Positions 13,124 through 19,097 of a DNA stretch of 64,000 nt are shown here, in pieces (position 1 is the first letter of the stretch; each line of letters opens with the position of its first letter). The translations under genes and the position numbers were made by a program. Under the pieces are notes generated by a model. That model saw nothing but the letters and a program-made list of their open reading frames with translations. It was not told where the DNA came from and searched no databases. Source of the DNA: Pseudofrankia sp. DC12 (GTDB lineage: Bacteria; Actinomycetota; Actinomycetes; Frankiales; Frankiaceae); the NCBI RefSeq assembly GCF_000966285.1, contig NZ_KQ031391.1:3197208-3261207 (forward strand), written 5' to 3'.

Positions 13124-13447
13124 GCGCGCGGCTCCTCCCGGCGGCCGGGTTCCACGCGATCAGCTCATCCGTCGCGCGGTTCCCGGCCTGGTCCCTGCAA
13201 CCTTCCGGCAGCCCTAAGTCTTTCTCCCGCCCGGCCTCGGGAGCTGGGGACCCTCCCGGCCGGGTCGGAGGTCTCCCCCGCGGGGCTCCCGGTCGGTCGA
13301 CGCCCGGCCCGCCCCGCCGTCGTCAGCATGAACGGCCGCGACCGGGACGTGCGATGGGACGCAATCCGCATCACACCCCTGCGCCCAAAAGGACGATGCG
13401 CTGAAGGGTGGCGGCGGTCTACAGTACGGACACACAACTGAACATGG
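13124..13447. other. divergent promoter region, HAD phosphatase / thrC leader
   Basis: About 320 bp with no credible gene. It must contain the promoter of the HAD gene (minus) and of the riboswitch transcript (plus). A TACAGT hexamer at about 13419-13424, ~25-30 bases before the riboswitch, is a candidate -10 box for the latter; no good -35 box is visible. Confidence 0.4.
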
Positions 13448-13547
13448 CTCATCCAGAGGGGCAGAGGGAACGGCCCAATGAAGCCCCGGCAACCGAGCGG
13501 ACGAGCCTGCTCGCTGATCCCTCCGGGATCAGCTTCGCCTTTGCCGC

Positions 13548-13605
13548 GATGCCTGCCCGGGGGGCGACCCCCGGACCCCCGGTGTCGCGCTTCGCGCGAC
13601 CTAGG
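13548..13605 (+). repeat. dispersed palindromic repeat, family A, copy 1 (inside the riboswitch)
   Basis: A ~58-bp element made of two hairpins: CCGGGGGGCGACCCCCGG, then TCGCGCTTCGCGCGA. A second copy with about 85 percent identity by eye lies at 19037-19097 after groEL. Here it occupies the P3 insertion of the SAM riboswitch. Confidence 0.82.
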
Positions 13606-13668
13606 TGCTTCTGACCACCCGGTCAGGTGCTCTGACCGAGCACGTCAGGTGCTTCTGACCACTCGGTC
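13603..13668 (+). repeat. three 22-bp tandem units inside the riboswitch P3 insertion
   Basis: Three units at 13603-13624, 13625-13646 and 13647-13668, each beginning AGGTGC and containing TGACC, with a partial fourth unit after. They resemble the authentic riboswitch segment AGGTGCCAATTCCGACC at 13732-13748, with a short gap. Confidence 0.85.
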
Positions 13669-13791
13669 AGGCGGTCATCTCCTAGGCGCGGCCCACCCGT
13701 GGGCGCGGTCTACGGCAGTGCTCCCCGCGGCAGGTGCCAATTCCGACCCGAGGTGCCATCGTCGGCCCCGGGAAAGATGAGGAGATCCGCG

Positions 13792-15075
13792 ATGACTCTC
13801 GCGCCGGAGCGCGCTGCCCAGACGGGCTCGACCACCGATGACGTGAACCCCGCCGTCTCGCTTTCCTGTCGCCACTGCGGCGCGATCTACCCGCTTGGCC
13901 CGCAGCACGTCTGTTTTGAGTGCTTCGCACCGCTGGAGATCGCCTATGACGAGGACCGGCTGCGCCGGGTAACTCGCGCATCCATCGAGGCCGGGCCGAA
14001 GAACCTGTGGCGCTACGTCGGCCTGCTGCCCGCCGGCCACGACCCGGCCCGCCGGGTATCCCTCGGTGCCGGCTTCACCCCGCTGCGGCCGGCGCCACGG
14101 CTGGCCGCCGAGCTGGGAATGAAGACCCTCTGGGTCAAGGATGACAGCGCGAACCCCACCCATTCGTTCAAGGACAGGGTCGTCTCGGTCGCGCTCTCCG
14201 CCGCCCGTGACCTGGGCTTCACCACCGTCGCCTGCGCGTCCACCGGCAACCTGGCGCATTCGGTCGCCGCGCACGCCGCCCACGCGGGCCTGCGCTCCAT
14301 CGTCCTGGTCCCGCACGACCTGGAGGACGGCAAGACCGTCTCCACCGCCGTCTACGGCGGCACCCTGGTCGCGATCAAGGGCAACTACGACGACGTCAAC
14401 AAGCTGTGCAGCCAGCTCGCCGACGAGTACGAGTGGGCGTTCGTCAACGTCAACGTCCGCCCGTTCTACGCGGAGGGCTCCAAGACGCTCGGCTACGAGG
14501 TCGCCGAGCAGCTCGGCTGGCGGCTGCCGGCGCAGGTGGTCATCCCGATCGCGTCCGGCTCGCTGCTGACCAAGGTCGACAAGGCGTTCCGCGAGCTGGG
14601 CAAGCTCGGCCTGGTCGAGCCGACGCCGTACAAGGTCTTCGGCGCCCAGGCCGCCGGCTGCAACCCGGTCGCGGCGGCGTTCGAGCGCGGCGTCGACACG
14701 GTCTCCCCCGTCCGCCCGTCGACGATCGCCAAGTCGCTCTCGATCGGCAACCCGGCCGACGGCCCGTACGCCCTCGACGTCGCCCGCCGCACCGGCGGCG
14801 CGATCACGGACGTCACCGACGACGAGATCATCGAGGGCATGCGCCTGCTCGCCCGCACCGAGGGCATCTTCGGCGAGACCGCCGGCGGCGTGACCGTGGC
14901 GAACCTGCGCCGCCAGCTGCGCGAGGGCCTCCTCGACCCCGACGCCGAGACCGTCATCTACAACACCGGCGACGGTCTGAAGACCCTCGACCCCCTCGTC
15001 GGCATCGCCCTCCCCACCGCGACGATCCCCCCGACCCTGAGCGCCTTCGAGGCCGCGGGCCTGGGCGACGACTGA
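13792..15075 (+). CDS. thrC: threonine synthase
   Basis: A PLP enzyme converting O-phosphohomoserine to threonine. The 427 residues begin with a short zinc-ribbon-like segment (CRHCGAIYPLGPQHVCFECF, residues ~23-42) seen in actinobacterial and archaeal forms. The PLP lysine is in THSFKDRVV (Lys ~127), with CASTGNLAHSVAAHAA, the glycine-rich phosphate loop ASGSLLTKVDKA, and ETAGGVTVANL later. ATG 13792 has GAGGAG seven bases upstream. That site overlaps P1 of the SAM riboswitch, so high SAM should lower expression, linking threonine flux to methionine/SAM status at the shared phosphohomoserine/homoserine branch (inference). A strong hairpin follows the stop. Confidence 0.92.
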   Translation: MTLAPERAAQTGSTTDDVNPAVSLSCRHCGAIYPLGPQHVCFECFAPLEIAYDEDRLRRVTRASIEAGPKNLWRYVGLLPAGHDPARRVSLGAGFTPLRPAPRLAAELGMKTLWVKDDSANPTHSFKDRVVSVALSAARDLGFTTVACASTGNLAHSVAAHAAHAGLRSIVLVPHDLEDGKTVSTAVYGGTLVAIKGNYDDVNKLCSQLADEYEWAFVNVNVRPFYAEGSKTLGYEVAEQLGWRLPAQVVIPIASGSLLTKVDKAFRELGKLGLVEPTPYKVFGAQAAGCNPVAAAFERGVDTVSPVRPSTIAKSLSIGNPADGPYALDVARRTGGAITDVTDDEIIEGMRLLARTEGIFGETAGGVTVANLRRQLREGLLDPDAETVIYNTGDGLKTLDPLVGIALPTATIPPTLSAFEAAGLGDD

Positions 15076-15082
15076 GACCCCA

Positions 15083-15133
15083 CCTTCTGGCCTCGTGCGG
15101 TCACGATGCGACACCACCCACGAGGCCGGAAGG
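15083..15133 (+). terminator. thrC terminator hairpin
   Basis: CCTTCTGGCCTCGTG (15083-15097) pairs with CACGAGGCCGGAAGG (15119-15133): 15 bp with one G-U wobble and a 21-nt loop, 8 bases after the thrC stop. There is no U-tract, as is usual in high-GC actinobacteria. Confidence 0.7.
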
Positions 15134-15558
15134 ACGGTCGACTCTGGTCAGCCCCAAACAGGGCCGATCGTGGTTGGACCTGCTTTGAACGTCTGATCGC
15201 CGCAGGCTGGCCGCCAGACGCACCCGCAACCGGCTCGATTTCGCGCGTCCTGGTCACCGCCGTCGAGCACCGGTCGTCGGCGCTGTAGACGTGCCACACC
15301 GCGTTCGGCAACTCGAGCGCGCCTGTCGACCCCAGCCCCTGCACTGCGGGCGTGGCGACGGCTGGCTACTCAACCGTCGAACTTGGGAGGCCGGTCACAA
15401 AAGACAGGGCGTTGTGTCTCTGACGTGCCATTCCCGGTTGTGCGGAGCGCAACGGTCCATAACAATGCAGTTCCTATCGTGCTGCGCCGGGGGGAGCAGA
15501 CGACGATGTTCATGGCTCTGTCGTGGCCGGACAGCCAAGTTCGTAGGTCGCCGATCCC
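15134..15558. other. low-coding stretch, possibly decayed sequence
   Basis: About 425 bp with no supported gene. Base composition is less extreme than in the flanks. Short overlapping frames are present (for example one with FERLIAAGWPPDAPATG), but none shows a conserved domain or a ribosome binding site. It may be the decayed N-terminal part of the DUF4407-like gene that follows, but I see no clear remnant. Confidence 0.4.
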
Positions 15559-16107
15559 GTGCCGCCCTGCCCAGCCAACCCCACGCCGGATCAGGTATTC
15601 AACAACCCAGCATGTGTCTCGATGTACTCGGCGCGGGCCGACGACCTACAGCGCATCCTGCGGTTCTGGCTGCTGGCGGTCGAGATCGCGCCAGTCGTCG
15701 TCAAGTTCGTCAACTCGCTACTGCCCCGCCGGGCCTATGCGGAGCAGATGTTCGCTCGCGACGAGGAAGCGCGGCGCAGGGCCCGCGCCGACGTCGCCCG
15801 CATCCGGTCGGACGCAGATGCGGACGTCGCGATCGCGCGCCGCGCAAGTCAGCTGAGAGTCGAGGTTGAAGGGGCGACCGCCGAGTTGGGCATCCGGGAA
15901 GCTGCCCGGCAGGCGCGGCGGTTCCGGCTGCCCTGGATCCGGGATCAGTTCGAGCGAGCGGTCGGCGCCACGCGGAGCCGACGCGCCGTGCACGTCATCG
16001 ATCTCGACGAGTCAGGCGTGCTCCCGGAGGCTCCCCCGAGCCCACCGGTCCCTGGTCCGAGGGCGGCGCCTGGTCTGCGCGTGATCAACAACGAGGACTT
16101 CCTCTGA
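15559..16107 (+). CDS. DUF4407-like C-terminal fragment, possible pseudogene
   Basis: A 182-codon frame. After a poorly supported start (VFNNPACVSMYSARADD) it has RILRFWLLAVEIAPVVVKFV, which matches the last transmembrane region of DUF4407 membrane proteins, followed by a charged, coiled-coil-like stretch (residues ~60-125: EEARRRARADVARIRSDADA) and a proline-rich tail. Full DUF4407 proteins have three further membrane helices upstream; these are missing here and I cannot find them in other frames. I read it as a truncated remnant, but a short functional protein is not excluded. It neighbours a toxin-antitoxin pair. Confidence 0.5.
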   Translation: MPPCPANPTPDQVFNNPACVSMYSARADDLQRILRFWLLAVEIAPVVVKFVNSLLPRRAYAEQMFARDEEARRRARADVARIRSDADADVAIARRASQLRVEVEGATAELGIREAARQARRFRLPWIRDQFERAVGATRSRRAVHVIDLDESGVLPEAPPSPPVPGPRAAPGLRVINNEDFL

Positions 16108-16273
16108 CGCTGCGACGGCGCCAGCGCAACCGACGCGGGCGCACCTGATCCCGGCGCCGTCACGCGGCTTGAGCCTGATTGCGGACAGGACTGGAACGGG
16201 TCAGTTGTATGGCTGGCAGCGTCGGATCACGACCTAGGATGATTCTGCCTCAACTTCGCGCCACTTTCGAGTA

Positions 16274-16288
16274 TCATGCAGAGCATGA
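16274..16288. promoter_or_regulatory. inverted repeat over the antitoxin start, candidate autoregulatory operator
   Basis: TCATGC and GCATGA form a perfect 6-bp inverted repeat around AGA. It covers both candidate antitoxin start codons (ATG 16276 and ATG 16285). YefM/Phd antitoxins bind palindromes near their own start, so this is a plausible operator (inference). Confidence 0.45.
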
Positions 16289-16581
16289 CCGTGCTGCCGT
16301 TCACCGAGGCGCGCAACCGACTTTCTGATCTGATCGACGAGGTAGCCAAGACGCACGACCGGGTGGAGATCACCCGGCACGGCCGCGCAGTAGCCGTGCT
16401 GATCTCCCCGGACGACCTTGCAGCCATCGAGGAGACGCTCGACGTCCTCGCCAGCCGCGAGACCATGCGGCAACTGGAGGAGTCGCGCGCCGCGGTCGAG
16501 GCCGGCGACGTACTGGACGCCGACGAGCTCGCGGCGCTGATGGCGAAGCGCGCCCGTGGGGACGGCGGGCGCCAGGCATGA
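16276..16581 (+). CDS. type II antitoxin, YefM/Phd (RelB-like) family
   Basis: A 101-residue protein. The N-terminal ~55 residues form the Phd/YefM fold: PFTEARNRLSDLIDEVA, then RVEITRHGRAVAVLISPDDL. The acidic C-terminal half (SRETMRQLEESRAAVEAGDV) would wrap the toxin. It should neutralise the toxin encoded immediately downstream and repress the operon. ATG 16276 and ATG 16285 are both possible starts; MTVLPFTEARN from 16285 looks like the canonical N-terminus. Its stop overlaps the toxin start (ATGA, 16578-16581), indicating translational coupling. Confidence 0.9.
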   Translation: MQSMTVLPFTEARNRLSDLIDEVAKTHDRVEITRHGRAVAVLISPDDLAAIEETLDVLASRETMRQLEESRAAVEAGDVLDADELAALMAKRARGDGGRQA

Positions 16582-16865
16582 GGCCGGGCGGCGAGCCCTA
16601 CGAGCTGAGGATCGCCGGTCCGGCGGCTCGTGCGCTCGCCAGCCGCCTCCCGGAGAAGATCGCGTCGGCCGTCCACGAGTTCATCACGACAGCGCTGCTG
16701 GAGAATCCGCGCCGACTGGGCAAACCGCTCCTACTGCCGCCCTACGAGGGGACCTGGTCCGCCCGCCGTGGCACCTACCGGGTGCTGTACGAGATCGACG
16801 ACGAGAACAGAACCGTGCTGGTCACCGCCATCGAGCACCGATCCGACGCCTATAGATCACGCTGA
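16578..16865 (+). CDS. type II toxin, RelE family
   Basis: A 95-residue RelE-fold protein, probably a ribosome-dependent mRNA interferase. It has YELRIAGPAARALASRLPEK at the start, the helical FITTALLENPRRLGKPL, and the beta-strand core YEGTWSARRGTYRVLYEID and TVLVTAIEHRSDAYR, with the basic residues and terminal tyrosine used in RelE catalysis. It overlaps the antitoxin gene by four bases. The pair sits in a small non-conserved-looking islet between thrC and groEL. Confidence 0.9.
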   Translation: MRPGGEPYELRIAGPAARALASRLPEKIASAVHEFITTALLENPRRLGKPLLLPPYEGTWSARRGTYRVLYEIDDENRTVLVTAIEHRSDAYRSR

Positions 16866-17109
16866 CCATCCGCCGGGCTCGGGCCGCCACAGTCAGCACG
16901 GAACCGGGGCGGACGAAGCAAGGGGGACGCCGAGCTGGTTGGTGCCGGCGGCCCGCCGGCAGGCGTCCTGCGGAGGCTGCGCCCGGCAGGGCATCGAGGA
17001 CCGTCGAGCGCTCGGCGTTGGCCGGATGGCCAGGCGACAAACGCGCAGGCAACGGGTGGTCTCGACGGGCCGACCGGTCGACGACAACGTTGCTGATACG
17101 CGGAGCGAG

Positions 17110-17136
17110 CTTGCACTCACCGATGTCGAGTGCTAA
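17110..17136 (+). promoter_or_regulatory. CIRCE element 1 (HrcA operator)
   Basis: CTTGCACTC, nine bases, then GAGTGCTAA. This matches the CIRCE consensus (TTAGCACTC-N9-GAGTGCTAA) except at the start of the left arm. It lies ~225 bp before groEL. TTGCAC within the left arm could be a -35 box with a weak -10 near 17134. Confidence 0.88.
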
Positions 17137-17143
17137 ACAGGGA

Positions 17144-18981
<1,838 letters not shown>

Positions 18982-19036: not shown

Positions 19037-19097
19037 GATGTCTGCTCCGGGGGGCGCCCCCCGGAGACCCCGGATGTCGCGCTTCGCGCGACCAAGG
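19037..19097 (+). repeat. dispersed palindromic repeat, family A, copy 2
   Basis: Contains CCGGGGGGCGCCCCCCGG and ATGTCGCGCTTCGCGCGACC, matching the copy at 13548-13605. It follows the groEL terminator and may act as a second one. The rest of 18982-19423 has no supported gene; the promoter of the next gene should lie in its last 150 bp. Confidence 0.8.

Follow-up and report, generated by a model that had tools for sequence, protein, structure and literature searches.

The window analysed here (the whole 64,000-nt stretch of Pseudofrankia sp. DC12 DNA) contains a complete SAM-I (S-box) aptamer at positions 13448–13781 of the plus strand, the two halves of which are separated by 238 nt in the P3 loop. 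The leader is a variant of a known riboswitch and does not represent a new class. Quite probably, it is a working SAM-I riboswitch that lowers the translation of a metM gene and whose P3 element was swollen by a repeat and small hairpins, the core being left almost unchanged. A SAM riboswitch with a very long P3 insertion had been proposed in a sequence-only reading of this DNA, and that proposal is borne out by the exact pairing of CTCATC (13448–13453) with GATGAG (13776–13781). The large insertion thus stands, and its size changes from the earlier 237 nt to 238 nt, GGCAACC ending at 13494 and GGTGCC starting at 13733. The features of the leader and its gene, all on the plus strand, are as follows.

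13420–13425, +: −10-like box TACAGT (family form TA[CGA]AGT)
13448–13453, +: P1 5′ strand CTCATC, the same in all 28 aligned leaders
13458–13487, +: P2a/P2b arm with internal loop; two of the five P2a pairs changed on both sides
13471–13473 with 13743–13745, +: PK-1, formed by P2 loop bases; PK-1 and P2b pairs invariant
13488–13494, +: P3 5′ strand GGCAACC, from the alignment of excised leaders
13495–13732, +: 238-nt P3-loop insert
about 13498–13606, +: dispersed genomic repeat, nearly half of the insert
13603–13676, +: three tandem units at 22-nt spacing with TGAC..GTCA hairpin sequence, the second copy 67% like the first
13733–13738, +: P3 3′ strand GGTGCC, from the alignment of excised leaders
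13747–13772, +: P4 hairpin (13747–13750 with 13769–13772), pairs formed in 98.2% of cells, with changes on both sides at two of the four
13776–13781, +: P1 3′ strand GATGAG, from the alignment of excised leaders
13780–13784, +: Shine-Dalgarno sequence AGGAG, sharing two bases with the P1 3′ strand and lying 7 nt before the ATG at 13792
13792–15075, +: probable metM (NCBIfam: threonine synthase thrC), 427 aa; TIGR00260 273 bits, cut-off 167

Anatomy of the split aptamer

The architecture of the aptamer was read from an alignment of leaders from which the inserts had been excised, comprising that of the window and those of 27 relatives (28 leaders out of 36 excised). Across the 27 pairs of P1, P2a, P2b, PK-1, P3 and P4, 99.7% of the 756 cells hold standard pairs, a fraction that drops to 33%–52% when partner columns are slid by one to three positions. 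All 27 pairs form in the excised window leader, as do nearly all cells in the 27 relatives. Changes on both sides of a helix were seen in P2a and P4 only; the pairs of P1, P2b and PK-1 never vary, so that the alignment provides no self-test of these helices. The 3′ half is also distinctive within the window: GGTGCCAATTCC occurs once in the 64 kb with up to one mismatch allowed (0.18 expected; at least one occurrence in 16 of 100 shuffles) and GGGAAAGATGAGG likewise once (0.04 expected; 4 of 100 shuffles), and both are exact and stand in the correct order.

With its P1, kinked P2, PK-1, P3, P4, invariant core and a SAM-pathway gene downstream, the leader conforms to SAM-I (RF00162). It departs from other members of the class in the length of its P3 loop, 238 nt as opposed to a maximum of 86 nt among the 146 leaders parsed outside the Frankia group, and in that P1 itself overlaps the Shine-Dalgarno sequence. 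The SAM-I/IV variant lacks both the internal loop in P2 and PK-1 (PMC2864571, PMC6890682); the window leader has both, and membership of that variant was therefore rejected.

A search with the Rfam models, which the sequence-only reading had recommended for the SAM families, returned RF00162 as the sole Rfam family to reach the gathering score in the 64-kb window (46.8 bits, cut-off 44.4, E 1.5e-7), but with a false 3′ half fitted. The Rfam alignment ends at 13534, within the insert, where the P1 5′ strand is joined to an insert hairpin, an end that we rejected because the relatives reveal the true 3′ half, the one recognized in the sequence-only reading. The score tends downward with P3 length, from 79.6, 78.3 and 73.9 bits at 20, 21 and 22 nt, through 72.9, 63.3 and 62.3 bits at 49, 50 and 89 nt, to partial fits above 140 nt (44.7 bits at 147 nt, 49.1 at 219 nt and 46.8 at the 238 nt of the window). 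The Rfam model thus gives wrong ends for long-P3 forms, and longer ones could be missed. That Rfam connects the 5′ half with another 3′ half might be expected if the split were an artefact, that is, two unrelated half-motifs or an assembly error; yet a comparison of leaders in relatives, which had also been suggested, recovered the same two halves at graded spacing in eight genomes, and the 3′ half occurs only once in the window, making an artefact highly improbable. A second RF00162 match in the window's genome scored 18.4 bits, far under the cut-off, and was set aside. One other genome of the genus (G033) has two RF00162 matches, compared with one in the remaining genomes of the genus.

Growth and divergence of the P3 insert

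The P3 loops of the eight genomes of the window's genus measure 50, 89, 143, 146, 147, 198, 219 and 238 nt, compared with 20–25 nt in the 19 leaders from other genera of the Frankia group. Beyond these 27 Frankia-group leaders, 146 more were parsed, with a median of 42 nt and a maximum of 86 nt; the minimum of 1 nt (L091) is a parsing fault, and 10 of 143 leaders were left unparsed (L088, L094, L096, L100, L102, L109, L115, L117, L163 and L217). In this sample, the insert is graded in length and specific to the genus of the window.

The dispersed repeat within the insert is matched 37 times in the window's genome at E ≤ 1, counting the query copy, and the longest of the other matches spans query positions 7–115. 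A 65-base probe yielded, at E ≤ 0.001, at least 26 matches in the same genome (itself included), at least 19–28 in six other genomes of the genus and 0–6 in the other 27 genomes of the family; these per-genome counts draw on no more than 26 scored candidates each and may be low. The repeat is common (at least 19–28 matches) in the seven genomes with P3 loops of at least 89 nt and nearly absent (one match) from the genome with a loop of 50 nt (G034). Short, palindromic and present in tens of copies per genome, the repeat resembles REP/MITE elements. A further copy lies at window positions 19037–19097 (G000:C1:3216244-3216304). The tandem units that adjoin the repeat number three in the window, two in L043 and one in L124 (the latter two counted by eye on the alignment), and these counts of three, two and one fit the length steps between 238, 219 and 198 nt. 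The loop appears to have swollen in steps, partly by the dispersed repeat, and its growth can be traced in part: in the ancestry of the genus, the repeat would have come into the P3 loop, and the addition of short tandem hairpins would then have brought it to 238 nt, the core remaining unaltered. In SAM-I structures, the tip of P3 lies outside the SAM pocket. The natural series of P3 lengths, from 20 to 238 nt, offers a view of how much peripheral-loop load an aptamer can bear and still switch.

Divergence between the window and its nearest relatives, L043 and L124, differs along the leader. The core shows three differences per 100 sites in each comparison, as opposed to 24/215 in the insert (plus 27 gap columns) for L043 and 23/194 (plus 48 gap columns) for L124. 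Fourfold sites of metM differ at 47/275 and 40/275, respectively, and the stretch upstream of the leader at 52/149 and 54/154; several other fourfold counts, based on about 30 sites owing to unequal lengths, were set aside. The core is held. The insert changes at about four times the rate of the core, slightly more slowly than fourfold sites, and would be close to neutral. Its divergence of 0.11–0.12 is, however, lower than that of the upstream stretch, so that the insert may not be neutral and some constraint is possible.

That lower divergence in both comparisons would also suit an insert with a function of its own, such as a domain for protein binding or RNA processing, or a timer that delays synthesis of the 3′ aptamer half. 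The P3 domain of the window, folded in isolation together with the P3 strands, is more stable than all of its shuffled versions (z −5.5; 0/200 as stable), and the added units form hairpins. The same P3 stem closes in 11 of 11 P3 domains tested in isolation. Yet any GC-rich palindromic repeat is expected to be stable, the insert diverges several times faster than the core and has accumulated many gaps, and no second regulatory RNA was recognized inside it, no family other than SAM reaching the Rfam cut-off in the window; a permissive Rfam scan of 13300–13900 added one snoRNA match at chance level. We therefore regard a dedicated function of the insert as unlikely.

The opposite proposition, that the longest P3 domains compete with the aptamer and leave this clade with a weak riboswitch or one that is being lost, draws on ligand-free folding calculations. 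The minimum-energy fold of 13432–13830 contains P1, P2 and P3, while the pair probabilities for a slightly shorter stretch collapse to 0.02, 0.03 and 0.02, respectively, and recover to 0.42, 0.53 and 0.84 when the loop is swapped for one of 21 nt. The P3 pair probability is also low in L043 (0.01) and L124 (0.26), compared with 0.78–0.89 for loops of 50–147 nt. Because the minimum-energy fold and the pair probabilities contradict each other, full-leader thermodynamics was rejected as proof of the fold. Moreover, P1 reaches only 0.00–0.30 in short-loop relatives in the same calculation, and the native insert performs as well as most of 60 shuffled versions (its value for P3 was reached by 1 of the 60, for P1 by 12 and for P2 by 17); since short-loop relatives and shuffles alike give low values, the ensemble calculation cannot tell a live riboswitch from a dead one. 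These probabilities, besides, describe the full-length molecule at equilibrium and not folding during transcription, and the core differs at 3% of sites, compared with 11%–12% in the insert and 15%–17% at fourfold sites. Thus, some harm from the longest inserts is possible in these models, whereas outright disablement of the switch has a small probability in our estimate, and a working riboswitch that tolerates its insert remains the preferred reading.

The downstream gene and its control

A TA[CGA]AGTACG sequence lies immediately 5′ of P1 in 27 of the 27 Frankia-group leaders compared; a scan of 13150–13900 for the sigma-70 consensus found no sites. The overlap of the ribosome binding site with the P1 3′ strand, claimed earlier, holds in the form of AGGAG at 13780–13784, and GATGAGGAG is found in this Shine-Dalgarno/P1 region in the Frankia-group leaders compared. 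Transcription termination was set aside, there being no terminator-like sites in 13150–13900, and translational control is expected because P1 overlaps the Shine-Dalgarno sequence and such sites are absent. A leader open reading frame at 13478–13780 was also set aside; the insert lengths of the relatives are not all multiples of three apart. Under this scheme, SAM binding would stabilize P1 (13448–13453 with 13776–13781), which would sequester the first bases of the Shine-Dalgarno sequence and lower MetM synthesis, and less O-phosphohomoserine would then be diverted to homocysteine.

The sequence-only reading had taken the gene for a thrC of the threonine pathway, which is probably wrong. A separate, ordinary thrC is present in the same genome (L032), in the order hom-thrC-thrB (names by eye except thrC), and it is this gene and not that of the window that fills the hom/thrB operon position. 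Its product is 40%–41% identical to the window protein, which is most similar to proteins of Frankia sp. AgB1.9 (99%) and of strains of Pseudofrankia (93%). In a phylogenetic tree, the window protein and 78 relatives form one clade apart from 29 proteins of the thrC-operon type (support 0.762); a filter for length and stops had retained 78 of the 80 relatives and 29 of the 30 thrC loci, and the tree includes no characterized MetM. Members of the window clade carry an N-terminal Cys4 motif, and 35 columns are at least 97% conserved but different between the window type and ThrC, seven of them being gaps in ThrC. A gene for a MetO-like carrier occurs in the fetched stretch of 32 of the 80 named relatives' loci, and two Kitasatospora loci with metO are among those of the window-type set. 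The Kitasatospora order is riboswitch, metM-type gene, MetO-like carrier, cold-shock-like gene and groEL (names by eye); a groEL also lies near the window gene, as in Kitasatospora L106 (by eye). Between metM and groEL in the window (15076–17360), where Kitasatospora L106 has the MetO-like and cold-shock-like genes, there are a Phd/YefM antitoxin gene (16276–16581) and two open reading frames that gave no family match when tested.

MetM of Streptomyces has been described as a homocysteine synthase acting on O-phosphohomoserine (Hasebe et al. 2024, cited in PMC12172450), and the citing paper implies a SAM riboswitch upstream of S. albulus metM (PMC12172450). In S. lividans, RF00162 precedes SLIV_16930-16925, labelled threonine biosynthesis, and 21 of 22 predicted elements were reported as transcribed (PMC8079986). 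The window leader resembles such actinobacterial metM leaders (S. albulus, S. lividans SLIV_16930-16925) in that a SAM-I riboswitch stands before the same kind of gene, and differs from them in having no adjacent metO, no motif pair shared by the P3 loop and the ribosome binding site (see below) and a large insert. The separate thrC, the distinct clade, the MetO-like neighbours and the MetM papers together lead us to read the window gene as, probably, metM. Repression by SAM would then amount to plain end-product feedback, with phosphohomoserine spared for threonine. The sequence-only reading had marked the logic of SAM control as deserving a test; its premise, a threonine-pathway gene, is probably wrong, and the metabolic puzzle probably dissolves, since renaming the gene would resolve the seeming paradox in a simple way.

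The gene could still encode a real second threonine synthase, through which SAM would limit threonine formation, in keeping with its NCBIfam name and TIGR00260 score of 273 bits and with the lack of an adjoining metO. A Microcystis relative of MetM is reported to fall short of full MetM behaviour and to have threonine-synthase and deaminase activity (PMC12172450). The hom-thrC-thrB genes elsewhere in the genome, the separate clade with its Cys4 motif and 35 distinct columns, and the MetO-like genes present at 32 of the 80 named loci speak against this, and a SAM sensor suits methionine better than threonine; we accordingly give a second threonine synthase only a minor share of the probability and retain metM as the preferred assignment.

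As to a sulphur carrier for the enzyme, no MetO-like gene was found beside the window-type gene in the window's own locus or in 24 Frankia-group loci, 22 of which have at least 400 nt downstream. The best carrier in the same genome is a CysO-like protein, which is encoded next to cysM and shares 51% identity with a Kitasatospora MetO, and a carrier match was obtained in 35 of 35 family genomes; the CysO-like protein is likely the carrier for the window enzyme. Elsewhere in the genome, a second ThiS/MoaD-like carrier (L036, 1498–1782; 37% identical to a Kitasatospora MetO) is a possible alternative. The genome also contains a MetX-like gene scoring 365 bits, under the cut-off of 500 bits, which none of 14 controls reached, and it is adjoined by an O-acetylhomoserine sulfhydrylase gene.

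P3 loops and ribosome binding sites in other actinobacteria

Outside the Frankia group, many leaders combine CGAGG-like bases, of the form C-G-[AG]-G-G, in the P3 loop with CCTC between the Shine-Dalgarno sequence and the start codon. The two motifs occur together in 34 of the first 102 distinct leaders, while 2 have just the one in P3, 21 just the one at the ribosome binding site, and 45 lack both (Fisher p 2.5e-10); both are present in 33 of the 65 leaders of this first sample with P3 loops of at least 30 nt. Inclusion of a second batch brings the counts to 67, 2, 24 and 46, respectively, for 139 leaders, the second 40 (L251–L290) having been selected with the pattern already in view, largely out of two families, and being richer in it, with both motifs in 33 of the 37 distinct ones. 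A further scope of the sample is that 100 leaders were taken by position from the listed RF00162 matches and may differ in their downstream genes, and that the set labelled non-Frankiaceae includes Frankiaceae/Frankiales metagenome-assembled genomes (L067, L068, L069, L070, L072, L079, L089 and L164), of which L164 is the same genome as L070 and L079 is also among the 32 MetO-like loci.

A strong helix between the P3 loop and the ribosome binding site was found in 28 of the first 102 leaders, whereas 100 shuffles gave 3.9 on average and 9 at most; the shuffle and Fisher tests both ignore relatedness. With the two sides anchored separately, 443 of 469 cells pair in register, as opposed to 79/335 to 228/469 when slid, the anchors guaranteeing four of the seven pairs in the former count. 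At the seven flanking positions, two (5 and 6) exceed all 1000 shuffles and five do not, position 6 pairing in 27 of 67 leaders; the compensatory forms include GCGAGGCG/CGCCTCGC and GCGAGGTC/GACCTCGC. PK-2 of SAM-IV joins P3 to the 3′ tail (PMC6890682), and the complement in the other actinobacterial leaders similarly joins P3 to sequence 3′ of P1; unlike SAM-IV, these leaders keep P4, as does SAM-I. We found no report of such a helix for SAM-I in the literature searched. The possible interaction would link the SAM-I and SAM-IV architectures.

None of the 23 distinct Frankia-group leaders has both motifs, and their helices between the P3 loop and the ribosome binding site fall within the shuffled range: 6 at 17 or above (shuffled mean 7.1, maximum 12), 2 at 20 or above (2.4, maximum 6) and 2 at 23 or above (0.5, maximum 3). 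These observations and the presence of P4 led us to reject SAM-IV membership of the window leader. Pairing of this kind in the window was likewise dismissed, given that by eye it extends to at most 5 bp at the ribosome binding site and that the best helix (18.5) extends into the coding sequence. L043 and L124 contain a 9-bp complement, TCGCTGATC/GATCAGCGA. The helix would probably make the P3 loop part of the translational switch, and the Frankia group may have lost it, P3 being able to take up the dispersed repeat only afterwards and the riboswitch staying live around a repeat lodged in its aptamer, a scenario to which we assign slightly less than an even chance. The absence of the motif pair from the Frankia group may explain the freedom of P3 to swell.

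In the other actinobacteria, the motif at the ribosome binding site could alternatively pair locally with the Shine-Dalgarno sequence. Examples of leaders with both partners include L173, L200, L209, L252 and L270, among others.
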